DNA from: an uncultured Flavobacteriaceae bacterium
Lineage (GTDB): Bacteria; Bacteroidota; Bacteroidia; Flavobacteriales; Flavobacteriaceae
Reading direction: 5' to 3'
DNA length: 64,000 nt
Assembly (NCBI GenBank): GCA_947497245.1
Contig: CANMFO010000002.1
Span: 744,001-808,000 of the forward strand
The position numbers and the translations under genes were made by a program. The notes under the pieces are model-generated. The model was not told where the DNA came from, did no database searches, and worked only from the letters and a program-made list of their open reading frames with translations. Below, in pieces: positions 9,439 through 64,000 of this stretch; positions within the stretch are counted from its first letter, which is position 1, and each line of letters starts with the position of its first letter.

Positions 9439-10107
9439 TTAGCGTTCTTCCTTGCGTCCGTCCAATAAATGGATGATCCGTGAACCGTATGCGGCGTTCT
9501 TCTCCGAATGGGTCACCTGGATTATGGTCACTCCCTGATCGTTCAACTGTTTGAAGAGCTCCATAATTTCCTCTCCCTGTTTTGAGTTCAAGTTACCGGT
9601 GGGCTCATCGGCGAGAATCAGTTTGGGCTTGGTGATCAGTGCCCTGGCAACACCGACCAGTTGTTGTTGGCCACCGCTCAGTTGGGTGGGGAAAAGATCT
9701 TTTTTGCCCACGATATTGAACCGGTCCAGCATATCGGCCACCATGGCCTTTCGTTCGGACCCTCCCATTTTTTTGTAAAGTAAGGGCATTTCCAGGTTCT
9801 CGTACACGGTAAGTTCATCGATGAGATGGTACGCCTGGAACACAAAACCGATGTACTGTTTGTAGAGCTCCGCCCTATGTTTTTCCTTGAGCGTATGCAC
9901 CGGTTCGTCCAGGAAGTTGTATTCCCCCTCGTCAAAATTATCGAGCATTCCGATAACGTTGAGCAAGGTCGATTTTCCAGAGCCCGAAGGCCCCATAACG
10001 GAGATAAACTCCCCTTCCTCGACTTCCAAGTTGATATCCTTTAATAGGAAGACACGCTGTCCGCCTTGTTGTACCCATTTGAAAATGTTGTTCAATTGTA
10101 AAAGCAT
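9439..10107 (-). CDS. ABC transporter ATPase of the MacB/LolD type, terminal gene of the permease array
   Basis: Cytoplasmic ATPase subunit that would drive FtsX/MacB-type permeases; 222 residues, a stand-alone nucleotide-binding domain. Walker [10 protein letters not shown] (39-47), Q-loop FVFQ (88-91), signature LSGGQQ (143-148), Walker B LILADE with catalytic Glu168, and H-loop His200 (VTHSE) are all present, so it should be active. The residues after the signature read QLVGVARAL; the Arg that usually follows QQ in MacB/LolD proteins is Leu. It is the only ATPase gene in the window and lies 59 bp downstream of P1, at the promoter-distal end of the 22-permease run. Which permeases it serves is not visible; P1 is the nearest. 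Confidence 0.96.
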
Positions 10108-10127
10108 ATGTTCTATTATTTTTGTTT

Positions 10128-10145
10128 TTCCGATACCAGTCGGAA
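10128..10145. other. Hairpin between P1 and the ATPase gene
   Basis: TTCCGA and TCGGAA form a perfect 6-bp stem with a 6-nt loop in the 59-bp gap. In the minus-strand transcript it is followed by an A-rich stretch and the ATPase start codon. There is no T-run, so it is not a terminator; it may affect mRNA processing or ATPase translation. Confidence 0.4.
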
Positions 10146-10166
10146 GGCTGTTTGTTTTAATAAAGT

Positions 10167-12635
10167 TTATTCTTCCCTAAGTCCCTCCATGAGGTTGCCC
10201 GTGGCCGCTTTGATCGTTTGCGATAAAATGGTCCCGGAACCCAGCACAAACATGAGGCCCACACCTAAAAGTAGGATCCATGGACTAAAATCGATACGGT
10301 ACGAAAACGCTTCCAGCCAAATGCTGTTTAGCAAATACGCAATGGGGATGGTAACTACCGTTGCCAATCCAAACAATCGCAGGAACCCATTGGAAAGGAG
10401 CAGGGCAATATTTCCAATTTTCGCTCCGTGTATTTTTCGAATCCGTATTTCTTTTTTTCTCGACTCCGCGGTAAAGGTGGCGATCCCCAAAAGGCCAAGG
10501 CACGATATGCTAATGGCAAGAAAGGAAATAAAGCCCAAAATATAAACCAAATCGGCGAATATTGAATTCGTGTCTTTCAATCCATCGTCATAAATATCGT
10601 ATTTAAAGGAATGTATGCGATCTAGACTGTTCCACTTTTGTTCCATAAACCCCAGGACCGACGTCAAATTGGCCGTGGTGTCGTACCGAACGTTAATGAA
10701 TGCAAACTCCTTTGGTAAATATCGCAAAAGAAGCGGTTCATCGATGTCGGATTCCATAAGCAGATCAAAATAGAAGTTTTTCACCAGCCCAATGACTTTT
10801 ACAGGCTTTTCCTGTTCTCCCCCGCCCAATATGATCGTTTCCCCAACGATGTCCTCTGCGTGCTGATACCCCATGCGTTGCGCGGCCGCACGGTTCACTA
10901 TTACAAGGTGTTCCTTGTTTTCTGGCCCTGAAAAGGGAAAATTATTTCCGGCATCGAGCTGAAGTTTGAGGTTGGGGATGAAATTTCGGTCCACCCCGAT
11001 ATAATGGCATGTCAATTTCTGGTCGGACATTTTCTGTGTTTTGACCTCAGTTTGGCTGCCGTAACCCGGCATTCCAGGGACAAAGGAACTCGCTGATATG
11101 GTATTGATGCCCGGATGCTGGCCGAATTCGTTCGATACCATGGCATGGTCCGCACCCTGAAGCTTCACGTTGATGATGTTGCCATGATCAAAGCCGTATT
11201 CGGCCTCCAGCATGTGGTTCATTTGGAAATAGAGCAATAGGGTAGATATGATAAAGAGCAAGGAGGCGCAGAACTGTAGTACCACCAAGAATTTTCGCAA
11301 AGTAAAACGCTTTACAAAACCCAGGTCCATACTGGAGAGGTTCCGTATGGTTTTTATGGGTGAGAAAGCCGAAAGAAAGGAAGCCGGCAATACCCCGGCC
11401 AGTGCTCCGACCAACATGCTGAACAAAACGAACAGGCCGTATACCGCCAGGTCCGGCGTAAAGTCCAACTCAATAAACCTGTTTATCCAAAGGTTCTGAA
11501 ACATGATGCTCAGAAGCTGTAGTATGCCCACGGCCAGCAAGAGGGACACCAGCGATATGACGATCGATTCTACAACAAACTGAACGAACAACTGGCGCCG
11601 TGCTGCGCCGATGACCTTTCGGACACCCACTTCCTTTGCCCGGGCCAGGGATCGTGCGAACGACAGGTTCACATAGTTAAAACAAGCCGAGAAGAGGACG
11701 ACCAAACCCAAAAAAGAAAGGAAATAGAAAACTTCCAAGGGAATCCGAATGCTGATGGGCATGTTCACAAATTTTCCCAGGGTAACCTCCGAGAGGGCCT
11801 GGGTGCTAAAATCGATATTCGAATCTTCGGCACGGTCGTATTTTAATTGGGAGATGGTTGCCAAAATCGGGGCCAGGTCCTTTTCCGTTTTGCCTTCTCC
11901 CAAAACCAAATAAAGATACGATCCATGGTATTTTTTCCAGTCATCAAAGGTCGCTTCGGCCTTCCCCTGCTTGGCCAGGACGGTAACGGTCGACATGGAG
12001 ATCAGAAACTCAAACTGGATATGTGATGGGGGGGAAGTATCGACTACGCCGGTAACTGTGAAATCTCCGAGCATGTTTTCTTTGTGCGACTCCAAAATAT
12101 CAATCCCCATGGTATTGAGGCCGATATCGTTCAGGCGGACCGATCTGCCCACCGGATCTTCTTTCCCAAAGAGTTTCTCAGCGGCTTTTTTGGCCAAGAC
12201 TATCGAAAAAGGGGCGTCCAATGCGGTTTTGGGGTTTCCACCAAGGAGTTTAAAATCAAACACCTTAAAAAAACTGGCGTCGACATAGCGGCCGGCCAAG
12301 GGGATACGTTTATCGCCATAAACCACGTCCCCACCGACAAAACTCGATTTGATCCGCGCCATTTCCTCCACTAGGTGCGGATACGTTTCCAAAAGTTCCG
12401 GGCCAAGGGGCAAGGGCGTGCCGGCCATTGGTGGACCATTTTCATTCGTACTCAAAACGCGCACTATCCGATTACCTTTTTGGTGAAAACCATCCACTTT
12501 TTTTTGCCCATAAATGAGCAGGATAATCAGCAAACAGGCCGCGATGCTGATGGAGAGCCCAAAAATATTGATTAACGAAAAAAGCCTATGCCTAATGATA
12601 TTCCGAAAAGCGACCTTTAAATAATTCCTGATCAT
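10167..12635 (-). CDS. P1: FtsX/MacB-type ABC permease, next to the ATPase
   Basis: Inner-membrane permease of the MacB/FtsX superfamily, 822 residues, and the last of the array. TM1 lies at about 18-42, a first periplasmic (MacB-PCD-like) domain follows to about 300, then the first FtsX block with coupling helix KEVGVRKVIGA (334-344), a second periplasmic domain from about 470 to 690, and the second FtsX block. Two oddities: the second coupling helix reads KEIRIRKIHGA (728-738) where paralogs have KEIGIRKVLGA, and the tail is GNLMEGLREE, lacking the NP found in the other 21. Its closest relative here is P13 (shared QKxxDxFH start, NIINV segment and an insertion near 170-190). Lying 59 bp from the ATPase gene, it is the most likely dedicated partner. 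Cargo unknown. Confidence 0.95.
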   Translation of the reverse strand: MIRNYLKVAFRNIIRHRLFSLINIFGLSISIAACLLIILLIYGQKKVDGFHQKGNRIVRVLSTNENGPPMAGTPLPLGPELLETYPHLVEEMARIKSSFVGGDVVYGDKRIPLAGRYVDASFFKVFDFKLLGGNPKTALDAPFSIVLAKKAAEKLFGKEDPVGRSVRLNDIGLNTMGIDILESHKENMLGDFTVTGVVDTSPPSHIQFEFLISMSTVTVLAKQGKAEATFDDWKKYHGSYLYLVLGEGKTEKDLAPILATISQLKYDRAEDSNIDFSTQALSEVTLGKFVNMPISIRIPLEVFYFLSFLGLVVLFSACFNYVNLSFARSLARAKEVGVRKVIGAARRQLFVQFVVESIVISLVSLLLAVGILQLLSIMFQNLWINRFIELDFTPDLAVYGLFVLFSMLVGALAGVLPASFLSAFSPIKTIRNLSSMDLGFVKRFTLRKFLVVLQFCASLLFIISTLLLYFQMNHMLEAEYGFDHGNIINVKLQGADHAMVSNEFGQHPGINTISASSFVPGMPGYGSQTEVKTQKMSDQKLTCHYIGVDRNFIPNLKLQLDAGNNFPFSGPENKEHLVIVNRAAAQRMGYQHAEDIVGETIILGGGEQEKPVKVIGLVKNFYFDLLMESDIDEPLLLRYLPKEFAFINVRYDTTANLTSVLGFMEQKWNSLDRIHSFKYDIYDDGLKDTNSIFADLVYILGFISFLAISISCLGLLGIATFTAESRKKEIRIRKIHGAKIGNIALLLSNGFLRLFGLATVVTIPIAYLLNSIWLEAFSYRIDFSPWILLLGVGLMFVLGSGTILSQTIKAATGNLMEGLREE

Positions 12636-12669
12636 GATCTTATAAATTTACACCATTCCCAAATATCCT

Positions 12670-15072
12670 TTATTCTTCCTGCAACGCTTTGACCGGATTG
12701 GCCAGGGATGCCTTTAGGGATTGGTAACTACAGGTAACCATTGCGATTATTAGCGTGGCGAGGCCCCCGCACAAAAACATCCAGAATGAAAGGGCGATGC
12801 GATTGGTAAAACCTTCGAGCCACAAGTTCATAAAGTAATACACGATTGGGGCGGCTACAACGAACGCCAGGGAAACCAGGCCAATGTACTCCTTCATGAA
12901 AAAAGCAAGGTTTTGGTACAGGGAAGCGCCCAGCACCTTTCTAATGCCAATTTCCTTTACCTTCTTCGAAACGACAAAGTACATCAGACCAAAAAGACCC
13001 AAACATCCGATACTTATGGCCAGGAAGGAAAAAATTCCAAACCCGTAAAAGATCATTTGTTCTATGGCGTATTCCCGTTCAATGGACTCATTTAAAAAAT
13101 GGTATTGGTATACCGATGTATCAAAAGTCTGTTTCCAGATTTTCTCCATATGCGATAATGACCCATAATCGGTACCGGTCATTTTTACAAAGGCTTGATT
13201 CTGGAAATAAGTCCAGTTAAGAAGCACACAGGGCGTTATTTTATATTGTAGTGAATTATTGTGAAAATCTTTGGCCACACCAACAATGGTCGCCTGTCCC
13301 TCATTGATTTGGATTTTTTTTCCAATGGCTTCTTCAGGTTGCCATCCAAAGGGTTTTATAAAGGTTTCATTGACGATAAACTCGTCAAAAGCTTCTTTAT
13401 TGGTCAAAAAATTTCTTCCGGCCAACAGTTCAAGCCCATAGAAATCGAGATAATGGACGTCCCCAATTTTCATTTCCGCTTCCAAGGCTTCTTCCGCAGC
13501 TTGTTCGGGCAAACGGTAGCTCGTGCCCAATTGAATACCGTGAACAGCCATTGGCGGACCGGAGCCATAGGCGACCTCCGTGATGCCCGGATCCTCAAGA
13601 AGCCTGTTTCTGAATACATCCAATTTTTCGAAGACCGGGGTTTCCGTTATTACCACGGCTTCCCTGTCAAAGCCCAAGGGTCCATTCTGGAAATGGTTCA
13701 TTTGTAGGGCCAGAATGATGGCCGCGATCACAAAGACCTGTACGATTACGAACTGGAAAGCGACCAAGGATTTTCGCAGACCGGCCCCGCGTGTCCTAGT
13801 TCCCTGTCGGTTTTTTAAGGCCTGGATCGGCTTGTGCGCGGAAAGCACCGCGGCCGGATAGGTGGATGCCAGGAGTATGGTGACGCCACCAATGGCCAGT
13901 ATTAGGCCAATATGTTGCCAACCAAACGCGAGCTGTAGATCGATAATGGACAAATTCGCGTTGATCGCATCGGTCAAAAAAGCGACCGTAAGAATTGAAA
14001 GGCCCAGGGTGGCCAGGATCAGCATGCTGTTTTCAAGCATGAATTGCAAAATTAGTTCGGAGCGCTTGCTGCCCATAACCTTCCTGATCCCCACCTCCTT
14101 TGATCTGGAGTTCGATTGTGCGGTAAGCAGGTTTACAAAATTGACGATGGCCACGAAAAGAATGAACAAGGCCACCATGGAGGCAATGAACAGGACGTTC
14201 GAAGGCATGATATACCCTCCGGGACTACCGCCGTACAAAGTTTCGTTGTGGATTTCGGTCAAAGCTTGCAAACGGTAGGAAATACGTTTGTCATCCTGGG
14301 GATTCAAATACTTTTTCTTCCAATTTGCGATTTTGGTCTCAAGCGTTTTTTTAAGCGTTTCCTCCTGTAGTACCACAAAAGTGGTACCCTGATAATTGCC
14401 AGACCAATTGGAGGAGAAATAGGGATTGTTGATCTTAAAGAACTCATACGGAACCAATATTTTGTATTGGTGGTCCGAATTGCCCGGAGGGCTTTTTACC
14501 ACACCGGTCACCGTTAGGGGATCTTTGTCCTGGATAAGGAGGGTCTTGCCCAGTGCCGCGGCGTAGTTGTCGCTGTCAAATCCGAAGAACTTCTTCACCA
14601 AAGGCGCCGTCAGGACCACAGAATTAGGATCGGAAAGCGCGGAATTGGAATCTCCGGCCAACCATTCCATATCAAAGGTTTTTGGATAAAACGGATCTAC
14701 GAAAAGCACATGGGATTCTTGGAACCGCCTAGGTTTTTTTGGACTGTCGTGAATGCTGAATTCACGGCTCATGGGTCCGGCAACCTGGGTGACCATATCA
14801 ATTTCTGGAAAATCATTTCTCAAGGCCTCGGCCAAGGGGTAGGCGGTGGTGTTCCAATGTTGTACCTGATCCGGCAGCTGGTTGTGCTGCACCACCCTAT
14901 AGGTCTGATCGGCCTTTGAATGATGGGCGTCAAAGGTGGTCTCGTATCCAACGAATACGAGGATGACCATACAGCTGCTTATTCCCAAGGTAAGTCCTGA
15001 AATGTTGATGAAAGAGCTCAACCTGTGTTTCCAAAGGTTGCGCCAAGCGATTTTGATATAGTTTTTTAACAT
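12670..15072 (-). CDS. P2: FtsX/MacB-type ABC permease
   Basis: 800-residue internally duplicated permease. Cytoplasmic start MLKNYIKIAWRN, TM1 about 18-42, His51 in the DAHH segment, periplasmic domain 1 to about 290. Coupling helices are KEVGIRKVMGS (325-335) and KEIGIRKVLGA (706-716); the tail is NPVKALQEE, with Gln in place of the usual Arg. The fifth membrane segment contains FQFVIVQ, a feature shared with P12 and P18, as is the WNTTAYPLAEAL-like opening of periplasmic domain 1; I group these three. It lies 34 bp upstream of P1 and 45 bp downstream of P3. The role is inferred from fold only: mechanical coupling of ATP use to a periplasmic task such as peptide, lipid or lipoprotein handling. 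Confidence 0.95.
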   Translation of the reverse strand: MLKNYIKIAWRNLWKHRLSSFINISGLTLGISSCMVILVFVGYETTFDAHHSKADQTYRVVQHNQLPDQVQHWNTTAYPLAEALRNDFPEIDMVTQVAGPMSREFSIHDSPKKPRRFQESHVLFVDPFYPKTFDMEWLAGDSNSALSDPNSVVLTAPLVKKFFGFDSDNYAAALGKTLLIQDKDPLTVTGVVKSPPGNSDHQYKILVPYEFFKINNPYFSSNWSGNYQGTTFVVLQEETLKKTLETKIANWKKKYLNPQDDKRISYRLQALTEIHNETLYGGSPGGYIMPSNVLFIASMVALFILFVAIVNFVNLLTAQSNSRSKEVGIRKVMGSKRSELILQFMLENSMLILATLGLSILTVAFLTDAINANLSIIDLQLAFGWQHIGLILAIGGVTILLASTYPAAVLSAHKPIQALKNRQGTRTRGAGLRKSLVAFQFVIVQVFVIAAIILALQMNHFQNGPLGFDREAVVITETPVFEKLDVFRNRLLEDPGITEVAYGSGPPMAVHGIQLGTSYRLPEQAAEEALEAEMKIGDVHYLDFYGLELLAGRNFLTNKEAFDEFIVNETFIKPFGWQPEEAIGKKIQINEGQATIVGVAKDFHNNSLQYKITPCVLLNWTYFQNQAFVKMTGTDYGSLSHMEKIWKQTFDTSVYQYHFLNESIEREYAIEQMIFYGFGIFSFLAISIGCLGLFGLMYFVVSKKVKEIGIRKVLGASLYQNLAFFMKEYIGLVSLAFVVAAPIVYYFMNLWLEGFTNRIALSFWMFLCGGLATLIIAMVTCSYQSLKASLANPVKALQEE

Positions 15073-15117: not shown

Positions 15118-17538
15118 TTATTCTTCCCTCAGTGAATTTACCGGATTTTTGTTCGCGGCGCGTATCGCCTGGCTTCCAACGGTGAACATGGCGATTACCA
15201 ACGCCATGAATCCCCCAGTGAGGAAGTACCAAAATTTCAGCGGAATATGGTACGCAAAGCCCGAAAGCCAGTGCTTTGCCAACAGATAGGCGATCGGTAG
15301 CGCAATGAGGACCGCCATCAGCACAAGTTTGGCAAATTCATTGGAAAGCATCAGGGCAACCTGCGCGGCACTTTGCCCCAAAACCTTTCGTATGCTTATT
15401 TCCCTTCTTCTTCTCTGGGTGGTGAAAACGGCAAGGCCAAACAATCCCAGGCAGGAAATAAATATGGCCAGGCCCGCAAAGTACTTCGATAGGGCGGCCA
15501 CCCTGCTCTCCGATTCGTACAGGGCCTGGTAACTTTCACTCAAGTATCTAAAATCGAAGGGCATTCCCTGGACGAAATACGCTCCATAAGCCTTCCGGAT
15601 ACGCTCGATGGTCGCCACCTCGTTGCCCGGCTCCATACGGACCATGATGTTCGAGGCAAAGTTGTTATTGTCCAGTTTCATGAAAACCGGCATTACCTTG
15701 TTGTACATTTTATCGACATGAAAGTTTTTGACCACACCAATGATCTCGCGTTCTTTCCCCCAAAGCGAGATGACCTTTCCAATGGGATCCTCCATCCCCA
15801 TCTGCTGGATCGCGGCCTCGTTGAAAATGATTTTTTCCCGCTCGTTCTGGAATTCCCTCGAAAACAATCGTCCTTCCCCAAGCTGCATCTGCATGGTCTC
15901 GATAAAATCGTAACCTCCCGAGATCTGGGCGAAAAGTGCGTTTTCCCCTAGGTCCTTTCCCGGCCAATCAAGTCCCGTTGTGGTTCCGAAATCGGCCATC
16001 ATCGTATGCCTGAAGTTGGAGGCGTTCACTACCCCGGGCGTATTTTTCAAAATTTGCAAAAAATGATCGATCTCCTCAACGCTCAGCCCCCCCGGACCAT
16101 TGACCTCGTTCAGGTTGGCTTCCAGGACCCCGGATGAAAACCAAATTATGTGTTCTTTGTTAAACCCCAGATTCTTTTTTTGAATAAACGCCATTTGCCT
16201 GTATACGACGAACACCGAAACGATCAGAATTACCGAAATCACGAATTGAAATACCACCAATCCCTTTCTGATAAAATGTCCGCCCATACTTTGGGTAAGT
16301 TTTCCCTTTAAACCGCTGAGCGCGGAAAGGCCCGACAGGTACAGCGCAGGATAGACCCCAGCGGCCAAGCCGGCGCTGAGTGCAATCAAAATGATCCCCA
16401 AGAGAAGACCGGCATCAAACTCCACCGTCAAATCCTTTTCGGCAATGCCGTTGAACTGGGGCAATAGTGCCATTACGATCAGCAGCGCCATCACCATGGA
16501 AATAGCGGAGGTTATCACGGATTCGGCGGTGAATTGGAGCACTAGGCTTTTTCGATGGGCCCCAACCGATTTTTTGACCCCTATTTCCTTGATTCGGGTG
16601 GCGGCCCTGGCGGTGGCCATGTTCACGAAATTGACACAGGCGATGATCAAGATCAACAAGGCAATGATCGCGAACAATCGAACGTATTGTATTCTACCTC
16701 CGGAGACGGCTCCGTTCTGGTAATTCCCGTGCAAATAACGCTCCCTATAAACCTGTGCGAAATAGGTTTCTGGAAAATTTTTGTTCTTGGTCTTCAGAAA
16801 GTGCTTGATCTTGGTATTGAAGGTAGCCAGATCGGTCTTCGGACCCAAAACAGCGTAGGTGTTCAGATCGCTATTGTTCCATTCCCGTAGCTTCTCGTTT
16901 TGGGCGACAAAGACCTCCTTGTTGAACACGGCATCAAATTGCGCCGTGCTGTTTTTGGGAACGGCCTTAAAGACGGCCGAAACGGTATAGGTCCCGCCAT
17001 ATTCATCATGTATCCATTCCACGGTTTTCCCCAAGGCATCCGTCGTTTGGAACAGCTTTTTTGCCATTTCTTCCGAGATGGCGACACCATTGAGGTCGGC
17101 CAGGGCCTGATCGGGACTTCCGTGGAGCAGGGGAAATGAAAAAATGGAGAAGAAATCCTTGCTGGCAAATTGGTTGTCGGCACTAAAAAAGTGATCCCCG
17201 CCATTCGACAACAGAAACTTCTCCCCCTCGAACCATGAATTGTCAAGAACCGAGACCGTTTGCACCACTTCAGGGAATTCGTCGGCGATGGCCTCCGCCA
17301 AAGGTCCTTGTGTGGCCTCGTCGGTTTCGATGCCATTCGGGGTGGGGCGGTTCTGCAAAAGTTGTACCAAGCGGTCCCCTTTTTCATGAAAGGCATCCAC
17401 GCGCAACTCATCCACTATCCATAGGGCAATCAACAGGGCACAGGCCAAGCCCGCGGACATTCCCGCTATATTGATCAAAAAGGTGCCCTTGTGTTTTTTG
17501 ATGTTCCTCAGGAACAATTTTAGATTGTGCTTTATCAT
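15118..17538 (-). CDS. P3: FtsX/MacB-type ABC permease (KHN-LF-RNIK subgroup)
   Basis: 806 residues. It belongs with P4, P5 and P19, which share the opening MxxHxxxLFxRNI, a GGRIxYVxLF stretch just before TM2 (about 280-289 here), and Lys in place of Arg in the first coupling helix (KEIGVKKSVGA, 317-327). The second helix is REISIRKVLGQ (712-722), with Gln replacing the usual Ala, as in P4 and P5. His51 is present. The tail is NPVNSLREE. Its second periplasmic domain has an extra stretch (VNGPGGLSVEE region, about 490) not seen in P4. The head-GIN gene starts only 30 bp upstream of P3, so the two are probably translated from one message. Adjacent P3-P4-P5 look like a local tandem duplication. 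Confidence 0.95.
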   Translation of the reverse strand: MIKHNLKLFLRNIKKHKGTFLINIAGMSAGLACALLIALWIVDELRVDAFHEKGDRLVQLLQNRPTPNGIETDEATQGPLAEAIADEFPEVVQTVSVLDNSWFEGEKFLLSNGGDHFFSADNQFASKDFFSIFSFPLLHGSPDQALADLNGVAISEEMAKKLFQTTDALGKTVEWIHDEYGGTYTVSAVFKAVPKNSTAQFDAVFNKEVFVAQNEKLREWNNSDLNTYAVLGPKTDLATFNTKIKHFLKTKNKNFPETYFAQVYRERYLHGNYQNGAVSGGRIQYVRLFAIIALLILIIACVNFVNMATARAATRIKEIGVKKSVGAHRKSLVLQFTAESVITSAISMVMALLIVMALLPQFNGIAEKDLTVEFDAGLLLGIILIALSAGLAAGVYPALYLSGLSALSGLKGKLTQSMGGHFIRKGLVVFQFVISVILIVSVFVVYRQMAFIQKKNLGFNKEHIIWFSSGVLEANLNEVNGPGGLSVEEIDHFLQILKNTPGVVNASNFRHTMMADFGTTTGLDWPGKDLGENALFAQISGGYDFIETMQMQLGEGRLFSREFQNEREKIIFNEAAIQQMGMEDPIGKVISLWGKEREIIGVVKNFHVDKMYNKVMPVFMKLDNNNFASNIMVRMEPGNEVATIERIRKAYGAYFVQGMPFDFRYLSESYQALYESESRVAALSKYFAGLAIFISCLGLFGLAVFTTQRRRREISIRKVLGQSAAQVALMLSNEFAKLVLMAVLIALPIAYLLAKHWLSGFAYHIPLKFWYFLTGGFMALVIAMFTVGSQAIRAANKNPVNSLREE

Positions 17539-50035: not shown

Positions 50036-50037
50036 GG

Positions 50038-50868: not shown

Positions 50869-50878
50869 ACGGTTCACT

Positions 50879-55771: not shown

Positions 55772-58135
55772 TCACTCTTCCTTAAGCGCTAATATGGGAT
55801 TTCGATTGGCCGCCAGGACCGTCTGGGTACTTACGGTAAAAACTGTAACCACCAGGACCAATGCCCCCGCCGCAACAAAGTACCAAAGGTTGCTCCCTGT
55901 ATTATAGGCAAACCCGGAAAGCCAGTTATGGGTGAGCAGATGGCTTATGGGCAATCCAACAAATATGGCGACCAGCACCAACTTCACGAATTCACTCGAT
56001 AGCAAGAACGATATATGGGCACTGCTGCCACCCAAAACCTTGCGGATCCCAATTTCTTTCTTTCGTCGTTCCGCAGTAAAGGATACCAATCCAAAAAGGC
56101 CCAGACACGAGATGATTATAGCCAAGGCCGCAAAGTATTGGGACAAGGTGGACACCCTTTGTTCGGACTGGTACAGCTCTTGGTAGTTCTCATCCAAAAA
56201 CTTGTAATCGAACAAAAAGCCCGGATTGTATCCTTGATAAAAGTCCGCCAATGAAGCCAGGGTTTCCTTTTCCCTGCCCGCCGCTATTTTTATCATGAAC
56301 TTGGAGATTCTATCGGGCCACAAATTGATAATCATGGGTTTGATGTCCTCATGGAGCGATTCAAAATGGAAATCTTTGGCCACTGCGATGATCTCTCTGT
56401 CCATACCTCGAAAATTAATGGTCTTTCCTACGGGATCTTTCAATTGCATATGGGCAATGGCAGCTTCGTTCAGGATGACCTTGGTGTCTTCAGAGGCAAA
56501 ATCCTTGGAGAACGTCCTGCCTTCCACCAGTTCTATATCCAGCATTTCCAGTAAATCGTAATAGGCGATCATGTTCTGAAATTGGGTGTGATCGTTGGGA
56601 TCTTTTCCCTCCCAATGAAAACCACCAACGCCCCATCCTTGATTGGTCATTTTGTTCCGGCTACTGGAAGCGCTGACAACGCCGGGTATGTTTTTCAGCT
56701 CTGACAGGAAAGTATCCATATGGTCATTGTCCATTGTTTTTCCCTCCCGGTCAAAATGAATGATCTGCTCTTTGTTGTAGCCCAGGTTTTTGTTCTGGAT
56801 AAACTCGATTTGTTCGTGTACCACCAGAACGGAAACAATGAGGACCACCGAAACGGTATATTGGATAATAACAAGCCCTTTTCTCGTCCATACTTCCCCA
56901 ACAGAAGCGTTCAATCTCCCTTTTAGGATCGCGATGGGTTTAAAGCCCGAGAGGTACAGGGCCGGATAGCTGCCAGAGAGCAGTCCGGTAAATAGGGCAA
57001 TGCCCAAAAGGGAAAGTACAAATCCGATGTCAAAGCTGATGTGCAGCTGTTTTCCGGTAATCAGGTTAAATTCCGGCAGCAACAAGGCCACATAGATCAG
57101 GGAGAGCAGCAGTGCCATAAAGGACAGGGCCACGGCTTCAGTCAAATATTGGAAAATCAGCGTTTTTCTGTTCGCCCCGACCACTTTCTTTATGCCTATC
57201 TCCTTAAGCCTCCGGGAAGCCCTTGCGGTGGACAGGTTCATAAAATTGATACAGGCGATGATCAGTATAAAAAGGGCAATAGTTGAAAATAGTTTTACAT
57301 AAGTGATCCTGCCTCCGGCCTGTATGCCATTTTCGTATTTTCCATACAGATATTCATCCGAGTATTTTTGGATAAAAGGGGCTCGGTGTGTCTGCCTGTT
57401 GCCCGTCTGTTCCCTGATAAAATCATGGATTTTTTCGTTGAAGGCCATGACATCGGTGCCCGGTTGCATGTCCAGATAAACATAGGTCGATTGGCTGCCC
57501 CAATCCATAAGGTTGGGCTGCGACGGGATGAGTTCCTCATAGGAAAGAACAAAATCGAACTTTTCCGAAGCGTGCCGGGAAATGTCCCGGAAAACACCTG
57601 CCACCGTGTATTTTTCCTTATGTTGAAGATCGATCGTCTCTCCCATAGCAGCTTCGGGAGAACCGAATAGGGTATTTGCCATGGTCTCCGATAGCACCAT
57701 GGTGCCCGTATCGGCCCAGAGCTTGTTTTTGTCCCCCTTGATCAGTGGAAAGGAGAAAACCTTAAAAAAATCCTTGCTCACATAATGCCCGTCTGCCTTT
57801 ACGGTTTCCTTTTCCTTGGAAAGGGTAGCGTTGTCCAGGTATTTTGCGACCTGCACGGCACGGACCACTTCCGGCATTTCCTCGAGCAACAGGAGTGCCA
57901 TGTTTCCTGAGGTTACCTGATTTGCAATGGTACGCCCCGGAAATTCATAAAACTCCTTCAAATGAAAAATACGATCATTGTCATGAAACTTGTCCATTTG
58001 CAATTCATCATTTACCCACAAGTATATCAGGATGGTACAGGTCAAAGCAGTGGACAGCCCCACACTATTGATGAAAAAGGAAAACTTATACCTTAAGATA
58101 TTTCTCCTAAAAAGTTTTAAATGATGTCTTAACAT
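55772..58135 (-). CDS. P19: FtsX/MacB-type ABC permease (KHN-LF-RNIK subgroup)
   Basis: 787 residues from the ATG at 58135 (MLRHHLKLFRRNILRYK). The nine-codon upstream extension is in the gap and off-pattern. VNDELQMDKFHDN at 41-53 gives His51. GGRITYVKLF (274-283) precedes TM2. Coupling helices are KEIGIKKVVGA (311-321), the Lys type, and KEIGIRKVLGG (693-703). The tail is NPILALKEE, similar in its EE ending to P3-P6 although it sits 32 kb away among LRTE genes. It is the displaced member of the P3-P4-P5 group. It lies 55 bp downstream of P20 and 22 bp upstream of P18. Confidence 0.95.
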   Translation of the reverse strand: MLRHHLKLFRRNILRYKFSFFINSVGLSTALTCTILIYLWVNDELQMDKFHDNDRIFHLKEFYEFPGRTIANQVTSGNMALLLLEEMPEVVRAVQVAKYLDNATLSKEKETVKADGHYVSKDFFKVFSFPLIKGDKNKLWADTGTMVLSETMANTLFGSPEAAMGETIDLQHKEKYTVAGVFRDISRHASEKFDFVLSYEELIPSQPNLMDWGSQSTYVYLDMQPGTDVMAFNEKIHDFIREQTGNRQTHRAPFIQKYSDEYLYGKYENGIQAGGRITYVKLFSTIALFILIIACINFMNLSTARASRRLKEIGIKKVVGANRKTLIFQYLTEAVALSFMALLLSLIYVALLLPEFNLITGKQLHISFDIGFVLSLLGIALFTGLLSGSYPALYLSGFKPIAILKGRLNASVGEVWTRKGLVIIQYTVSVVLIVSVLVVHEQIEFIQNKNLGYNKEQIIHFDREGKTMDNDHMDTFLSELKNIPGVVSASSSRNKMTNQGWGVGGFHWEGKDPNDHTQFQNMIAYYDLLEMLDIELVEGRTFSKDFASEDTKVILNEAAIAHMQLKDPVGKTINFRGMDREIIAVAKDFHFESLHEDIKPMIINLWPDRISKFMIKIAAGREKETLASLADFYQGYNPGFLFDYKFLDENYQELYQSEQRVSTLSQYFAALAIIISCLGLFGLVSFTAERRKKEIGIRKVLGGSSAHISFLLSSEFVKLVLVAIFVGLPISHLLTHNWLSGFAYNTGSNLWYFVAAGALVLVVTVFTVSTQTVLAANRNPILALKEE

Positions 58136-58190: not shown

Positions 58191-60602
58191 TCATTCGGTC
58201 CGTAGACTTTCCACAGGGTTCACAACTGCCGCCTTAATGGCATGGTAGCTAACGGTCGTTGTGGCAACAACGGCTACCAATAGGCCTACCCAGATAAAGG
58301 TCAGGGGGTTGATGTCTATGCGATACTCATAATTTTGGATCCAACTTTGCATGGCGAACCAAGCCAATGGCATGGCGATCAACAGGCTGATCATCACCAA
58401 TTTTAAAAAGTGGAACGAAATCATGGAAACAATGCCCTTTACCGATGCCCCCATTACCTTTCGAATACCAATTTCCTTGGTACGCAGTTCGATCAAGAGC
58501 AGCGAAATGGCAAAAAGGCCCAAGCAGGACAGGAAAATGGCTATTCCCGAGGCCATTCCGAAAATTCGGGTCATGATGCTTTCTCCCTCGTACCAGGCCT
58601 GTAGGTTCTCATCGAGGAAGGAAGCATTGAATACGGGACTGGATGTGACCTTCTCCCAAACCTCTGAAAGCTGCCCCAAGGTGGCCATGGGATCATCCGA
58701 TCGAACCTTAAGAAAAATGTAGTTGATGGCCTCCGTTGATGATAGGTGCAGGGCGATGGGCAGTTCTTTTTCCGACGGGGAATAGGCATTAAAATCGGGC
58801 ACTACACCGATTATTTGATTTCCCGGGGCCGCATCTTCCCCACCCAGGTATTTTCCCACCGGGTCCGCTTCTCCCATGGCCCGGGCAAAACTTTCCGTGA
58901 CCACAAGGGCGTTTGTACTATCGGTAGCAAAGTCCGGGTTAAAATCCCTCCCTTTTACAATGGGAATTTGCAGGGTTTTTAGAAAATCGAAATCGGCAAG
59001 GAGCCAATAGGTCGAAATTTGATTTTGATTGTATTCCAGACCCACAGTTCCCCTGGAGGTAACCCTGTCCCTTCCCCGTCCCAAATTACTTCCGGCCCCG
59101 CAGATCGAAACGACGGTAGGGTCGTTGGCCATTTCATTGCGCATTCTGGCCAATACCTTTCGCCCGTCCAATGCGTTGCCCACAGGAATGCTGACGACCT
59201 GTTCCCGTTCAAAGCCTATGGGTTTATGCTTCAAAAAATCCAATTGTTGGCTGGCGATCACACTAATGCATATCAGCAAACTGGAAATGGCAAATTGGCT
59301 TACCAAAAGGATATTTCGGAGCAGCCCGGGCTTCTTGGTCGAAACGTTTCCCTTAAGAATTTCAACCAGTCCAAAATTGGACATTTTAAGAGCTGGGTAC
59401 CCTCCTGCAATTAGGGTGACAGCTAAAAAGACACTCAGGAGAATGGTCAAAAAAGCAGGCTGGAACAAAGTGGAAATCTCAATGCCTACATCAAACTGTG
59501 TGTTGAAGGCCGGTAACAGTTGGTACGCGCCCCAGATTCCAAGAATAAAACCGATAAAATAGAGGACAAAAGCTTCTCCCCATAATTGAGCGAACAATTG
59601 TCCCTTATGAGCGCCCAAGGTCTTGCGGACACCCAGTTCACGACTTCTTCCGAAAGAATGTGCCATGTTGAGGTTCACAAAATTGAAGCAGGCGATCAAA
59701 AGGATGAAGGCGCCCAAGGCCATTATGGCATATACCAATGCCAAAGGCGCGCTCCGTTCCCCCGAAAAATGAATGTCATCAATATTGGTAAGGTTTAAAC
59801 TGAGTAGTTCATGTGTTTCAGTGGCCTCGGGGCGTTCGCTTTTGAGCTGGGCCAATTGATCGGGATAGTATTTCTCCACTATGTCGATCAATTTGTTCTC
59901 GACCGTTCTTTGATCGCTATTTTCCGATATCTTGACAAAAACGTTGGAGGAATTGTTGCTCCAATCATTTTTAAGGGCGTTGTAGTCTGCCAAGGATTCG
60001 ATCCGCGCGATGGCGTCGAATCGGATACTGGAGTTTCTTGGACAGTCCTTGATCACCGCGGAGACTGTATAAAATTTCGCCTCTCCGGTTTTCCCGATCT
60101 TGACTTCCTTACCTATAGGGTCGATATCCCCAAAAATGATCGTGGCCATACGCTCGCTCAGGGCAATGCTTCGGATATCGGTAAGTACGGTAGTGCTATT
60201 TCCCTTTACTAGGGGAAAATTGAAGAGCTCAAAGAATTCGGGATCGGTCCTTGTTATTGAACCTTCAATAGCGATATCGCCATGGGACATGAGCTCATAT
60301 CTGCCCCTGTTGATCCTAACCGCCGCTTCTATATCCGAAATGTCCTCTTTAAGTGCCGGTAGTAGTGGCAACGGCATTTGGGAACTCATGTCGACCCCCT
60401 GGGCCGAATGGGAAAATCGGGAGGTTTTGAACAATTGGGACCTGTCCTTGTGGAAGGAATCATAGCTCAAATGGAAATAAGCGGTCAAAAAAAGTAGGGT
60501 ACAGACCGAAAATGCGATGGCCAACCCAAGAATATGAATAATGGAATGCAGCTTGTTCCTCCTGATATTTCTCCAAGCGATTTTCATATAGTTCCGAATC
60601 AT
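58191..60602 (-). CDS. P20: FtsX/MacB-type ABC permease
   Basis: 803 residues from the ATG at 60602 (MIRNYMKIAWRNIRRN); eight further codons upstream are open but off-pattern. His51 is in YDSFH. TM1 is atypical (IIHILGLAIAFSVCTLLFL). Coupling helices are RELGVRKTLGA (321-331), preceded by NMAHSFGRS, and KEIGIRKVMGA (709-719). In the C-terminal block Ile follows the invariant Trp (WIQNYE) where the others have Leu. The tail is NPVESLRTE. The gap to P19 is 55 bp and that from P21 is 50 bp; both contain 6-bp hairpins. Confidence 0.95.
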   Translation of the reverse strand: MIRNYMKIAWRNIRRNKLHSIIHILGLAIAFSVCTLLFLTAYFHLSYDSFHKDRSQLFKTSRFSHSAQGVDMSSQMPLPLLPALKEDISDIEAAVRINRGRYELMSHGDIAIEGSITRTDPEFFELFNFPLVKGNSTTVLTDIRSIALSERMATIIFGDIDPIGKEVKIGKTGEAKFYTVSAVIKDCPRNSSIRFDAIARIESLADYNALKNDWSNNSSNVFVKISENSDQRTVENKLIDIVEKYYPDQLAQLKSERPEATETHELLSLNLTNIDDIHFSGERSAPLALVYAIMALGAFILLIACFNFVNLNMAHSFGRSRELGVRKTLGAHKGQLFAQLWGEAFVLYFIGFILGIWGAYQLLPAFNTQFDVGIEISTLFQPAFLTILLSVFLAVTLIAGGYPALKMSNFGLVEILKGNVSTKKPGLLRNILLVSQFAISSLLICISVIASQQLDFLKHKPIGFEREQVVSIPVGNALDGRKVLARMRNEMANDPTVVSICGAGSNLGRGRDRVTSRGTVGLEYNQNQISTYWLLADFDFLKTLQIPIVKGRDFNPDFATDSTNALVVTESFARAMGEADPVGKYLGGEDAAPGNQIIGVVPDFNAYSPSEKELPIALHLSSTEAINYIFLKVRSDDPMATLGQLSEVWEKVTSSPVFNASFLDENLQAWYEGESIMTRIFGMASGIAIFLSCLGLFAISLLLIELRTKEIGIRKVMGASVKGIVSMISFHFLKLVMISLLIAMPLAWFAMQSWIQNYEYRIDINPLTFIWVGLLVAVVATTTVSYHAIKAAVVNPVESLRTE

Positions 60603-60613: not shown

Positions 60614-60636
60614 TTGACCTGACCACGATCGGTCAA
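60614..60636. other. Hairpin between P21 and P20
   Basis: TTGACC pairs with GGTCAA (6 bp, 11-nt loop); an alternative TGACC/GGTCA pairing with a 6-nt loop uses the same right arm. It lies in the 50-bp gap, about 12 bp before the P20 start. Confidence 0.3.
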
Positions 60637-60652
60637 GTGCGGTTATTTTAGC

Positions 60653-63019
60653 TCATTCCGTGCGCAGACTTTTTATGGGGTTGGCGTGCGCTGCCCTCAG
60701 ACTTTGAAAACTTACCGTTGACAGTGCTACGAACAACACCGCAAACCCTGCCAGGGCAAACATCCACCAGTGGATTTCAATATGGAACGCGAATCCCTGT
60801 AACCATTGGTTCATGGCATACCAAGCAATGGGGATGGCCACCAAAAAGGCAATAAGGACCAGTTTCAGGAAATCTTTGGAGAGCATGTTCACCAGTCGCA
60901 TGGCACTGGCCCCCAAGACCTTTCGAATTCCAATTTCCTTGAAACGTTGCTCGGCCATAAAGGCCGACAGCCCATAAAGGCCCAGACAGGAAATGAAAAT
61001 GGCAAGAAGGGCAAATACGTTAAAAATGGTACCCATTTGCTGTTCCCCTTTATATTGGGCATCCAGATCGCTATCCACAAAATTATAGGTCAGGGGATAG
61101 GCCGGGTTTAACGAACCATAGATCTCTTCGAGGGCGGCAATGGTGCTTTCTGTGGCTCCCGGTGCCGTTTTCACAACGGTGATGGACGCTCCTTCACGGT
61201 ACTGCAGCACCAAGGGCTCTATGGCGTATTGGAGAGGTTTGTAATTGAAGTCTTCCACCACGCCTATTACGGTGCCCTTATCTCCCCTAAATGTCAGGCT
61301 TTTGCCAATAGCCTCTTCCACATCCATTCCCATTACCCTGGCCGCGGTCTCATTGATCAGATAGTCGTGGTTTTCGTAGGAAGTCTTTGAAAAGCCCCTG
61401 CCCTCAAGAAGATTCATCTGAAAAACATCCAAGAAAGCTTCATCCGTAACCAAATGTGGAAAAAGTATCTGTTGATTTGGGTCTTTTCCGTCCCAGTGAA
61501 TGTCAAAATCCCCGGTGACCAGGTTGGCCGGAAGGTCCGAAATGATGGAAAAATTACTGGTCAACGGATTTTGTGCCAAGGCGGTCCGTAATGCGTCCTG
61601 CTTGCCCCATACTTCCCCTTCCATAGGGATGTATATCAAATTGGATTTGTCATATCCCAGGTTTTTGTTCTTTATAAAATTCAGTTGTTCGTAAATGACC
61701 ATGGTACCGATCAGTAGTAGAACGGAAACCACAAATTGCGAAACCACCAATCCGTTTCTGAAAACGAGGTTGTACTTGGAGCGTTTCTTGCGTCCCTTCA
61801 ATACTTCTATCGGTTTAAATCCGGATAGGAACAGGGCCGGATAACTTCCTGAGATCAGGCCCGTCACCAGCGCTATGGCCAACAATGCGACCCAAAGACC
61901 CATATCTCCCAGATGGAAGGCCAATTGCTTTTGTGCCAGATCATTAAAGGTGGGCAATAGGAAATACACCAGTGCGATGGCGACAATCAGCGAAAGAAAG
62001 GAAATCATCAGTGATTCCCCTAGAAACTGCAGTACGAGTTGGCTGCGACCGGCCCCGATCACCTTGCGGAGGCCCACTTCCTTAGACCTTCTTGACGACC
62101 GTGCCGTGGCCAAGTTCATATAATTGATGCAGGCCACAATTAAAATAACGAAGGCCACGATAAAGAAAATGTTCACATATTGGATGTTCCCATGGCCCGG
62201 TACATCTATTTGCAGATTCGAATGCAGATGAATGTCCCGCAAAGGCTGTAAATTGAAGGAGATTTCAAATTCGGTAATTCGGGCTGCGTAGATTTCGTCG
62301 ATTCGCTCCACCATTTTGGAAAGGTCCTCTGCAGAGGATATGGCGCCCTTTTCAAATTGGAAATATCCATAAAAATTAAAACTGTTCCATACCTTGTTGA
62401 TCAGATCGGAATCGGTTTTCGCATGATAGGCCATGGGCAGGATCATGTTGAACTGCAAGTGCGAATTGCTTGGAACATCGGCCAAAACGCCCGTGACCGT
62501 AAAGGTGTCCCTATTGTCCACTTTGATGGTCTGGCCCAGTGCCCTTTCGGCCCCAAAAAACTTCTTGGCCGTGGTTTCGGTAATTAAGATTCCATCGGGC
62601 CGGGCGAGGGCCGTCTTCGAATCCCCTTCGATTAGCGGAAATGTAAATACCTCCAAAAAATTGGCATCCGCAAAAAAGACCGGCTCTTCCTTATACTTCT
62701 GATCCTTTATCTCGATCAGGGCCTCAAAAGGGGAACTCAGGCGAAGACTTGATTTTATTTCCGGCACCAGATCCGGCAATTCCTCTACCATACCTGCGGG
62801 ACTTACGGCAGCCTTAAAATCTTCATTGGCGATTGCGGTCAGTCTGTATATCTCGTCAGAATGGGTATGAAAGGCGTCGTAGCTCACCTCGTTCTGCACC
62901 CAAAGCAGTATAAGAATACTGCAGGCCATACCAATGGCCAGTCCGCCGACATTCAACAAGGAGTACCATTTGTATTGAACAAAATTTCTCCAAGCGATCT
63001 TTATATAGTTTTTAAACAT
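60653..63019 (-). CDS. P21: FtsX/MacB-type ABC permease
   Basis: 788 residues. Start MFKNYIKIAWRNFVQYK, His51 in YDAFH. Periplasmic domain 1 begins unusually compactly (AVSPAGMVEELPDLVPEIKS). Coupling helices are KEVGLRKVIGA (313-323), preceded by ATARSSRRS, and KEIGIRKVLGA (694-704). The tail is NPIKSLRTE. The segment before TM2 includes DVPGHGNIQYVNIF in place of GGRIxYVxLF. Domain 2 contains YLINETAARVMGMD and VIGVVEDFNYKPL. It lies 52 bp downstream of P22, the gap holding the most extended imperfect hairpin of the array, and 50 bp upstream of P20. Confidence 0.95.
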   Translation of the reverse strand: MFKNYIKIAWRNFVQYKWYSLLNVGGLAIGMACSILILLWVQNEVSYDAFHTHSDEIYRLTAIANEDFKAAVSPAGMVEELPDLVPEIKSSLRLSSPFEALIEIKDQKYKEEPVFFADANFLEVFTFPLIEGDSKTALARPDGILITETTAKKFFGAERALGQTIKVDNRDTFTVTGVLADVPSNSHLQFNMILPMAYHAKTDSDLINKVWNSFNFYGYFQFEKGAISSAEDLSKMVERIDEIYAARITEFEISFNLQPLRDIHLHSNLQIDVPGHGNIQYVNIFFIVAFVILIVACINYMNLATARSSRRSKEVGLRKVIGAGRSQLVLQFLGESLMISFLSLIVAIALVYFLLPTFNDLAQKQLAFHLGDMGLWVALLAIALVTGLISGSYPALFLSGFKPIEVLKGRKKRSKYNLVFRNGLVVSQFVVSVLLLIGTMVIYEQLNFIKNKNLGYDKSNLIYIPMEGEVWGKQDALRTALAQNPLTSNFSIISDLPANLVTGDFDIHWDGKDPNQQILFPHLVTDEAFLDVFQMNLLEGRGFSKTSYENHDYLINETAARVMGMDVEEAIGKSLTFRGDKGTVIGVVEDFNYKPLQYAIEPLVLQYREGASITVVKTAPGATESTIAALEEIYGSLNPAYPLTYNFVDSDLDAQYKGEQQMGTIFNVFALLAIFISCLGLYGLSAFMAEQRFKEIGIRKVLGASAMRLVNMLSKDFLKLVLIAFLVAIPIAWYAMNQWLQGFAFHIEIHWWMFALAGFAVLFVALSTVSFQSLRAAHANPIKSLRTE

Positions 63020-63034
63020 GGTTCCCGTTTTTTG

Positions 63035-63055
63035 CCCGTTCTTTCAAAGGACGGG
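63035..63055. other. Imperfect hairpin between P22 and P21
   Basis: CCCGT-T-CTTT mirrors AAAG-G-ACGGG around one base, a 21-bp near-palindrome with one non-complementary pair, 16 bp before the P21 start. As RNA it would fold with 7-8 pairs and a short loop. There is no T-run on the transcribed side. Confidence 0.4.
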
Positions 63056-63071
63056 TCGCTGTTGTTTTATT

Positions 63072-64000
63072 TCATTCCGTACGCAGACTTTTCACAGGAT
63101 TTGCGTTTGCCGCCTTAATGGCCTGAAAACTGACCGTCAACATCGTTATCAAGAGCGCGCCTATCACGGCCAGTGCGAAAATCCACCATTTGAGAATTAC
63201 CCGGTAGGGGTACTCTTGCAGCCAACCGTTCATTACGTAATAGGAAATGGGGATGGCAATGAAGCAGGAAATCGTGACCAGCTTCAAAAAATCCTTGGAA
63301 AGCATGTTCCAGACGTTGAACACCGATGCGCCCAGTACTTTGCGCACGCCTATTTCCTTGGTGCGCTGTTCCGCTACGAAGGAGGTGAGGCCGAACAGGC
63401 CGAGGCAACTGATCAAAATGGCCAGGGCGGTAAAGATTCCGGAGAGCGTGCCGACCCGTTCCTCCGCGGCAAACTTTTCGCCGTACTCCTGATCGACAAA
63501 ATCATATTGAAACGGTATATTGGGAAAATGCTCTTTGAACACCCTTTCGATGATCGCCAGGTTTTGGCTTGCGCTCTGCTGGGGGTTCAACCTGAGATTG
63601 TAGTGACTGCCATTCGCATTCTTATCAAAAACGTACATGCCCTGTTTTACCGGTTCATAAGGAGATTGTGCGATCATGTCCTCTACCACGCCCACGATCT
63701 TTAAGGGCGGGTCCGGATTCTCATCGTCATCGTCCTTCATAAACTTGCCCACCGGATTCTTGATCCCCATATATTTTACCGCGGTCTGGTTGAGGAGCAC
63801 CGCGTTGGAATCGGAGGCGAATTCCCTCGAAAAATCCCTTCCTTCCACTATTTTCAGGTTCAAGGTCTTGACATACTCGTAGGAAACGGCGGTCCATGCA
63901 AAATCTTCTTGGAACCCCTCTGGCTTGCCCTCCCATGTAAATCCACTTCGGTTCGACCAGATGCGGGTCGTGGGACTGCTCGAAGTGGCCATCTCCACTA
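63072..64000 (-). CDS. P22: FtsX/MacB-type ABC permease, C-terminal part (N-terminus beyond window)
   Basis: The last 309 codons are visible; the frame is open to the window edge and the true start lies beyond it. What is seen starts inside periplasmic domain 2 (equivalent to about residue 490 of P15) and includes EGRDFSREFASDSNA, NQTAVKYMGIKNPVG, an acidic DDDDEN insertion before LKIVGVVEDM, and then the full second FtsX block with coupling helix KEIGVRKVLGA and the tail NPVKSLRTE. It is closest to P15 and then P10. It shows that the array is not complete in this window. Confidence 0.93.
   Translation of the reverse strand, partial: VEMATSSSPTTRIWSNRSGFTWEGKPEGFQEDFAWTAVSYEYVKTLNLKIVEGRDFSREFASDSNAVLLNQTAVKYMGIKNPVGKFMKDDDDENPDPPLKIVGVVEDMIAQSPYEPVKQGMYVFDKNANGSHYNLRLNPQQSASQNLAIIERVFKEHFPNIPFQYDFVDQEYGEKFAAEERVGTLSGIFTALAILISCLGLFGLTSFVAEQRTKEIGVRKVLGASVFNVWNMLSKDFLKLVTISCFIAIPISYYVMNGWLQEYPYRVILKWWIFALAVIGALLITMLTVSFQAIKAANANPVKSLRTE

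Follow-up and report, generated by a model that had tools for sequence, protein, structure and literature searches.

We analyzed a 64,000-nucleotide stretch of DNA (the window) from an uncultured Flavobacteriaceae bacterium, which corresponds to C2:744001-808000, part of contig C2 in a source genome of 5.25 Mb and 34 contigs. The window contains most of an array of 27 genes for large permeases of the MacB/FtsX type, which lies between two ATPase genes and covers C2:753439-822414 at its full extent. We lean toward the reading that this locus encodes a tripartite exporter controlled by an NtrC-type regulator, in which a shared ATPase motor would serve a library of fused MacB-like permeases. The anatomy is well supported by the sequence; the shared motor is something that we infer, and the substrate is a guess.

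We numbered the permeases p01 to p27 in the direction of transcription; the window contains p06 (cut by the window edge) through p27. As a preliminary description of the window had stated, 21 complete permeases and one that is cut by the edge lie on the minus strand between 9439 and 64000, and the trimmed lengths of the 21 are 786 to 823 aa. The same description expected the run to continue off the window, and extension along the contig gave both ends. At the 5' end, the genes for a histidine kinase (HK) and an NtrC-type regulator are divergent from an operon that starts with TolC (OEP match), an HlyD-type adaptor (HlyD_3 match), and ATPase1, with these head genes beyond the window; at the 3' end, ATPase2 closes the array. 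The single ATPase noted earlier is thus correct for the window, but the full array has a second one at the opposite end. Likewise, the permeases that were called consecutive do form a run on one strand, but two genes interrupt it, a DUF2807 gene and an alpha/beta hydrolase gene, whose N termini look like secretion signals when read from the sequence. Neighboring genes from TolC through ATPase2 are spaced 1 to 102 bp apart, which slightly widens the earlier range of 2 to 102 bp. PF12704 (MacB_PCD) matches are above the cut-off throughout the array; in p27, this domain scores 107.4 bits and FtsX (PF02687) scores 70.7 bits, each in two stretches and above the cut-off. By domain content and by fold, the permeases belong to the Type VII ATP-binding cassette transporters (the MacB/FtsX/LolCE superfamily), and the array is far above what chance would give.

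The structure of one permease, p07, was predicted from 52 aligned sequences. The model (mean pLDDT 86.5, pTM 0.81) has eight membrane-length helices and two periplasmic domains, and eight hydrophobic segments are also found by sequence. Its fold matches include YbbP (9ge6, E-value 2e-21), MacB (5gko, E-value 1.6e-14), a permease domain of P. gingivalis, and BceABS. Across the 27 paralogues, the periplasmic domains are the most variable regions (entropy 2.0 to 3.0); the two coupling loops have entropies of 1.34 and 1.21, and only the short C-terminal tail (0.93) is lower. The conserved coupling loops, the co-occurrence with ATPases, and the shared operator described below are at most indirect signs of a shared motor, and the permeases would share the adaptor and TolC as well.

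The frame formed by the two ATPases encloses 3 to about 40 permeases in other Bacteroidota. We searched 32 chosen genomes for ATPase2 and detected an orthologue (83 to 100% identity) in 25, all of which have at least three permeases. In 24 of these 25 genomes, ATPase1 and ATPase2 share a contig and a strand and span 8.8 to 108 kb, a count that does not support the earlier suggestion that contiguous arrays are rare; in the exception, G048, ATPase1 was unmatched in that search. Genomes without ATPase2 were G010 (from a different genus), G023, and G043, with two permeases each, G034 (five), G046 (three), and G006 (87% complete) and G011, where only distant ATPases (43 to 44%) and no permease at the threshold used were detected. 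Genomes of the same genus as the window's genome (G001 to G005, G007, and G009) have the frame with 4 to 17 permeases, the G005 array starting at a contig end, and the array of G008 is split across two contigs. Among further named records, Ulvibacterium marinum has 41 permeases of >500 aa (40 of >600 aa), Maribacter halichondriae has 17 of >500 aa with several genes broken, and an uncultured isolate, Aquimarina aggregata, Poritiphilus, and Leptobacterium have 18, 12, 11, and 11 permeases, respectively. In M. halichondriae (L071, or G033:C1:1325000-1385000), several array permeases are in pieces, through either gene decay or sequencing error. In a tree of frame proteins, the window's genome falls close to M. 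halichondriae, Pricia, and Ulvibacterium, a position within the Flavobacteriaceae.

The head of the array is similarly widespread. Taking the best 80 of at least 435 relatives of the adaptor as named loci, we detected the whole head (HK-NtrC divergent from TolC-adaptor-ATPase1) in 72 loci, 69 of which have at least one permease in the stretch examined; several of the loci that fall short run off the end of a contig. In other families of Bacteroidia, three of five array-like stretches have the order adaptor, ATPase1, 8 to 22 permeases, and ATPase2. G505 and G577, which belong to one genus, have 21 and 22 permeases from ATPase1 to ATPase2, broken by a block of seven other genes, and a TolC gene (29 to 31%) behind ATPase2, and G422 has eight permeases and a DUF2807 gene between the ATPases. 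G533 has 11 permeases with the head present and ATPase2 absent in the stretch, and G436 has eight permeases with no frame in the stretch. Loose candidate numbers per genome, which are a first look and not permease counts, rank the window's genome (61) second of 298 family members, after Ulvibacterium (74), and first among 246 class members. We found no description of such arrays or their regulation in the open-licence literature that could be consulted in part, a scope that excludes most subscription papers.

Considering 15 arrays together, 200 permeases fall into 62 types at 55% identity, and 41 of these types occur in more than one genome, in keeping with the proposal in the preliminary description that a contiguous expansion of fused MacB/FtsX-type permeases profits from many variants. 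The order of shared single-copy types was concordant in 568 of 676 comparisons and not concordant in 108. All 27 permeases of the window array have a better match elsewhere (59 to 83%) than in their own array. Divergence of the p06 type tracks that of the frame genes (r = 0.70, 31 loci), and the p04, p11, and p01 types do so with r of 0.44, 0.67, and 0.67, respectively. The permease library is a shared pool in largely conserved order, from which each species would hold a lineage-specific subset.

For the analysis of regulation, we collected 82 intergenic regions between TolC and NtrC and used 79, three having been dropped because they fell outside 40 to 400 bp; the regions come from related species and are therefore not independent. 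Word counting detected the palindrome TGTA-N9-TACA in 67 of the 79 regions. GACA precedes the palindrome at a fixed distance in 49. Downstream of the dyad, 61 of the 67 regions have a YGGCAY box, whose distance is exactly 63 bp in 48 regions and 62 to 64 bp in 54. A dyad with a downstream box at such a spacing has the geometry of an upstream activator and a sigma54 promoter, and the window's genome encodes RpoN. The NtrC-type regulator at the head is the putative ligand of this palindromic operator. A scan of the whole genome with one mismatch allowed returned nine operator matches compared to none for the reversed pattern: one at the array head, five at 158 to 175 bp before solo permeases, and three elsewhere. 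Of these three, two precede a solo DUF2807 gene and a gene for a DUF2268 lipoprotein, respectively, and the third sits at the end of an unrelated gene. A pattern with a shorter palindrome matched 15 times, no more often than its reversed control, and was discarded. We also trained a weight matrix without the window's genome and scanned 346 kb around its permeases; scores of >15 occurred at 12 places, which are the array head, nine solo permeases, the DUF2807 gene, and the DUF2268 gene. In nine other genomes that bear the system, there were 31 operator matches and 7 matches to the reversed control, and the 31 include nine at array heads, seven inside arrays, and five before solo permeases (21 in all). 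In five genomes that lack the system, operator matches and control matches numbered three each.

The window's genome has 19 scattered solo permeases (the 19th at C1:592999). Four are located beside a PadR gene (PF03551 in four of four), and none of these four has an operator score of >15. Among the 15 solos without a PadR neighbor, nine score >15 on either strand and two score 13.4 and 9.8. A GGCA box lies 62 to 64 bp downstream of a coding-strand site in 8 of the 15, as it does ahead of the DUF2807 gene; two of the strong solo sites lack a GGCA box at that distance. Because similar operators precede the array and 9 to 11 of the 19 solos, the array and the solos look like one regulon, a grouping for which the sequence support is good. 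According to a 2025 survey, COG0577 permeases in Bacteroidia are enriched for sigma54; the part of it available to us gives no operator (PMC12316311). The PadR-linked permeases (L018, L026, L027, and L028) are 872 to 910 aa in length, with an N-terminal extension. Their PadR neighbors and the lack of an operator suggest a class under separate control, similar to the HAAS-PadR/FtsX fusions (PMC11237479). At C2:628987-630015 (L018), a lipoprotein gene with a match to the DUF2268 zinc protease family is preceded by an operator-like site pair, with the closest GGCA box at 74 bp, and may be a further member of the regulon. At C7:80144-80169 (L173), the match has one mismatch and is located where an unrelated gene on the opposite strand ends, with no permease seen there.

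ATPase1 and ATPase2 are 55% identical. The motifs of ATPase1 are canonical in 93 of 93 rows and in four more from other families (some rows represent the same genome twice), and ATPase2 forms one clade (18 of 18, support 1.0). The aspartate of the D-loop is present in all 97 ATPase1 rows and absent from all 21 ATPase2 sequences, where Asn (15), His (2), or Gln (1) replaces it and where it is also missing in three of three sequences from other families. In addition, Leu or Ile replaces the Arg after the signature motif of ATPase2; the ATPase2 in the window has Asn and Leu at these positions. ATPase2 is, judged by sequence, a paralogue of ancient origin. The peptide transporter ABCB2/B3 tolerates mutations in the D-loop of ABCB3, whereas the aspartate of ABCB2 is essential (PMC7756269). 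Given this asymmetry and the D-loop loss in ATPase2, we suspect that ATPase1 and ATPase2 pair as a heterodimer. For 27 array permeases and 19 solo permeases, the window's genome has three ATPases of this closely related type. A second copy of ATPase1 stands alone at C2:946351-947046 (L026); it is 92% identical, has no operator upstream, and is located near a PadR-linked permease on the opposite strand. A similar lone 92% copy occurs in Ulvibacterium (L167:9050-9745).

Energy-coupling factor (ECF) transporters and MsmK-type shared-ATPase importers use one motor for many substrate-specific membrane parts. The proposed likeness to the array is one motor with many membrane parts, some of them encoded elsewhere, and two ATPase paralogues; the difference is that those systems are importers of other folds, whereas the fold here is of exporter type. 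A more ambitious version of the shared motor, which we hold tentatively and consider possible rather than probable, is that an asymmetric ATPase1/ATPase2 motor is common to dozens of exchangeable permeases, as the export counterpart of ECF transporters and the basis of a chemical-immunity repertoire. This version would comprise a giant sigma54/NtrC operon and a scattered regulon, with types that are ordered and sampled differently per species.

The locus resembles several known systems in part. Like MacAB-TolC, it has MacB_PCD and FtsX domains, genes for a MacA-like adaptor and TolC, and sequence and fold matches to MacB. In MacB, the nucleotide-binding domain is fused to a single half with four transmembrane segments, whereas here the ATPase is separate, each permease chain combines two transmembrane halves, up to about 40 permeases are framed by two distinct ATPases, and an NtrC-type regulator stands at the head. 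YbbAP-TesA of E. coli shares a fused two-half permease, two periplasmic domains, a separate ATPase, the top match (9ge6), and, in some arrays, hydrolase or esterase passengers. It differs in having a 10-helix fold (PMC12646458) with two interceding helices between the halves, compared to eight segments and eight model helices here, and the array has an adaptor and TolC in the same operon and many permeases.

We scanned 10 proteins, including three permeases, against NCBIfam. The models of the DarBCD exporter of darobactin (NF038007/8/10) include DarD and DarC as the best matches of the ATPases and the adaptor and DarB as the second-best match for permeases; that exporter has one permease, compared to 27 here. 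The best match of the three permeases was the acidobacterial duplicated orphan permease (ADOP) model TIGR03434, at 213.6, 259.5, and 302.6 bits over nearly the whole chain and below the cut-off of 622.3. ADOPs are defined as orphans by having no adjacent ATPase gene. The solos may fit such large paralogous families without an adjacent ATPase: most of the 18 that were mapped have no adjoining ATPase gene of this type, and one lies two genes from an ATPase1 copy. The score below the cut-off, the framing of arrays by two ATPases, and the shared operator are different. The preliminary description had contrasted this locus with the scattered acidobacterial permeases, a contrast that becomes somewhat less sharp, as the window's genome also has its 19 scattered solos, 9 of the 18 examined first with a strong operator match. 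By RAST annotation, two Dyadobacter genomes are reported to carry 28 and 33 ADOP copies (PMC11573002).

Passengers and neighboring genes provide some indication of substrate. We listed 36 passenger genes in arrays and scanned 24, of which 19 were DUF2807 genes; the other five were an esterase, two matches to PF06439 (one below the cut-off), DUF2911, and PKD. DUF2807 has been placed with the Toastrack domains of PSP/Lia envelope-stress systems (PMC11237479). In Aquimarina mytili and a related Aquimarina locus (L110 and L112), TolC-adaptor-ATPase1 and one permease, of the p24 type, lie beside a nonribosomal peptide synthetase (NRPS) gene of C-A-PCP-TE organization. A second locus in G004, from the same genus as the window's genome, has HK-NtrC divergent from adaptor-ATPase-permease-TolC, followed by two synthetase genes. 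L123 (Saprospiraceae), which like L110 and L112 has no HK-NtrC at the head, encodes a thioesterase and a phosphopantetheinyl transferase, but the stretch examined contains no permease. The relatives with NRPS neighbors point to peptide-like compounds, and our guess is that the substrates are peptide-like or hydrophobic.

Combining these observations, we propose a mechanism in which each permease of approximately 800 aa consists of fused MacB-type halves, with eight transmembrane segments, two variable periplasmic domains, and two cytoplasmic coupling loops that are conserved. All permeases would draw their power from one or both of the ATPases in the frame, and the adaptor and TolC from the operon head would supply the route across the outer membrane. 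The neighboring histidine kinase and NtrC-type regulator may sense an envelope or chemical signal, upon which the regulator would turn on a sigma54-type promoter at the array head, before scattered solos, and before the solo DUF2807 gene. Each permease type presumably recognizes a different peptide-like or hydrophobic compound, and each species would keep a lineage-specific subset of the shared pool.

A recent tandem amplification, a genomic island, or an assembly artefact without functional meaning would agree with the tandem layout, and 6 of the 200 permeases do have their nearest relative in their own array, but for the other 194 it sits in another genome, and this explanation seems to us very improbable. 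Copies within the array are diverged, with pairwise amino acid identities of 22.8 to 55.8% (median 29.8%) among the 27 permeases. Because nucleotide identity is at most 61%, near-identical repeats prone to misassembly are absent, and a repeat search of the in-window array returned diverged motifs only. Other assemblies contain arrays of the same frame, among them the one-contig genome G009 (eight permeases) and the M. halichondriae record titled as a complete genome, which settles the concern about misassembly that accompanied the preliminary description. Its proposal of a dedicated genomic island finds no support: GC content is 0.479 in the array compared to 0.478 and 0.483 in the flanks, and members of the family share the frame genes and permease types in much the same order. 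Nucleotide identity of the window-array permeases to compared relatives never exceeds 78.4% (alignments of >300 bp). We also considered recent horizontal transfer of permeases and saw no signal; a 94% match in L050 is merely a 141-aa piece. The array is a conserved locus class, neither an artefact nor a recent burst.

Two other explanations accept a conserved function and assign it differently. Under the main rival, which we judge unlikely, only a widespread core (the p06 and p04 types) would form the tripartite pump, and most of the other permeases would be YbbAP- or LolCDE-like extractors or mechanotransmitters. These would pass lipids or toxic molecules on to partners in the periplasm, for example the DUF2807 and esterase passengers. 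The p06 and p04 types are those carried by the two-permease loci (G010; L052 and L091), the median identity of the p06 type (0.78) is higher than that of the frame genes (0.73), YbbP is the top structural match and its partner TesA has esterase activity (PMC12646458), and passengers recur, with DUF2807, one of the Toastrack domains of envelope-stress systems, as the most frequent. However, permeases greatly outnumber passengers, the operator is shared by solo permeases, and the p24 type alone with TolC-adaptor-ATPase1 and NRPS genes implies that a non-core type can partner a full pump. The adaptor and TolC in the same operon speak against yet another possibility, that the permeases are BceAB-type detectors that feed the histidine kinase and that the array is a detection panel and not a set of exporters. 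So does the model, which has two periplasmic domains and eight helices compared to one domain in BceB (PMC5985334) and a 10-helix fold (PMC12646458), and the operator upstream of permeases makes them probably at least outputs. This possibility, which is more doubtful still, would fit the presence of HK-NtrC at the head of nearly every locus (the 72 of 80 above), the BceABS structural match, and the discussion of PadR-linked relatives together with HAAS-PadR sensing systems (PMC11237479). Export or clearance of envelope-active compounds appears to be the best reading.

Several observations weigh against an NtrC-controlled exporter with a shared motor. The NtrC-type regulators have GSFTDA (48 of 82) or GAFTDA (33 of 82), whereas canonical activators carry GAFTGA. 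A regular expression for the canonical sigma54 site matched only 3 of 82 regions, of which two were unusually long, and the canonical consensus as coded was found in none of nine intergenic regions from the window's genome and its relatives among G001 to G010. Three of the nine operator matches in the whole genome are not at permeases, 4 of the 15 solos without a PadR neighbor have no site, and 10 of the 31 matches in the nine other genomes are away from array heads, array gaps, and listed permeases; some of these 10 may be at permeases too, since the permeases are those among the matches listed. The best whole-chain TM-score of the p07 model to a solved structure (that of YbbP) is just 0.50. 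Scores against the darobactin-export models are far below the cut-offs (ATPase1 298 and ATPase2 247 of 375 bits, adaptor 200 of 450 bits, permeases 117 to 169 of 700 bits). Loci with one or two permeases, as well as G034 and G046, have no ATPase2; ATPase2 is therefore not needed by every permease, and an ATPase1 homodimer must suffice there. NRPS neighbors were seen in only three loci, two of them related (L110 and L112; G004), and we noticed none next to the large arrays.

Should the motor prove to be shared, one pair of ATPases would drive a whole library of exporting permeases, an arrangement that, to our knowledge, is known only from importers. The conserved order and the 62 types are natural material from which to learn how periplasmic residues determine the choice of substrate. 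The operator allows members of the regulon to be predicted in many Bacteroidota genomes and makes the role of "orphan" FtsX-type permeases directly testable.

Table 1. Genes of the permease array, with positions counted from the first nucleotide of the window unless a contig position is given.
Feature	Position	Strand	Remarks
ATPase2, last gene of array	9439..10107	-	Walker A, Q-loop, signature, Walker B, and H-loop present
Permease p27 (822 aa)	10167..12635	-	MacB_PCD and FtsX, two stretches each
Permease p26 (800 aa)	12670..15072	-	
Permease p25 (806 aa)	15118..17538	-	
DUF2807 (head GIN / Toastrack) passenger	17569..18306	-	Signal-like N terminus; recurs in other arrays
Permease p24 (786 aa)	18385..20745	-	Open reading frame readable to 20931; likely start 20745
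Permease p23 (791 aa)	20778..23153	-	
Permease p22 (793 aa)	23216..25597	-	
Permease p21 (805 aa)	25613..28030	-	
Permease p20 (794 aa)	28045..30429	-	Start trimmed
Permease p19 (793 aa)	30532..32913	-	
Permease p18 (791 aa)	32936..35311	-	Start trimmed
Permease p17 (823 aa)	35335..37806	-	
Permease p16 (814 aa)	37826..40270	-	
Permease p15 (809 aa)	40284..42713	-	
Permease p14 (789 aa)	42742..45111	-	Start trimmed
Permease p13 (799 aa)	45160..47559	-	Start trimmed
Permease p12 (804 aa)	47621..50035	-	Start trimmed
Alpha/beta hydrolase passenger	50038..50877	-	Signal-like N terminus; 77% relative within Ulvibacterium array
Permease p11 (809 aa)	50879..53308	-	
Permease p10 (804 aa)	53335..55749	-	
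Permease p09 (787 aa)	55772..58135	-	Start trimmed
Permease p08 (803 aa)	58191..60602	-	Start trimmed
Permease p07 (788 aa)	60653..63019	-	Structure predicted
Permease p06, cut by window edge	63072..64000	-	Full gene C2:807072-809471
p05-p01, ATPase1, adaptor, TolC, operator	to about C2:825274		Outside window
ATPase1	C2:821719-822414		Outside window

Short hairpins of unlike sequence occur in several array gaps (for example, window positions 63020-63071); as a repeated element they found no support, with z < -2 in only 4 of 26 gaps and a mean z of -0.5. Over approximately 40 of the 54.6 kb of array in the window, sigma70-like promoter sites numbered 23 and 31, compared to 23.9 and 25.5 expected. 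Terminator-like sites in two stretches numbered 38 and 28, compared to 27.1 (standard deviation 4.7) and 26.2 expected, so that one stretch has some excess. The left flank (window positions 1252-8396) looks ordinary: along with one protein that has no Pfam match, it encodes a DAHP synthase, a BipA-type GTPase, a ROK protein, a sulfatase, and a beta-lactamase-family protein.

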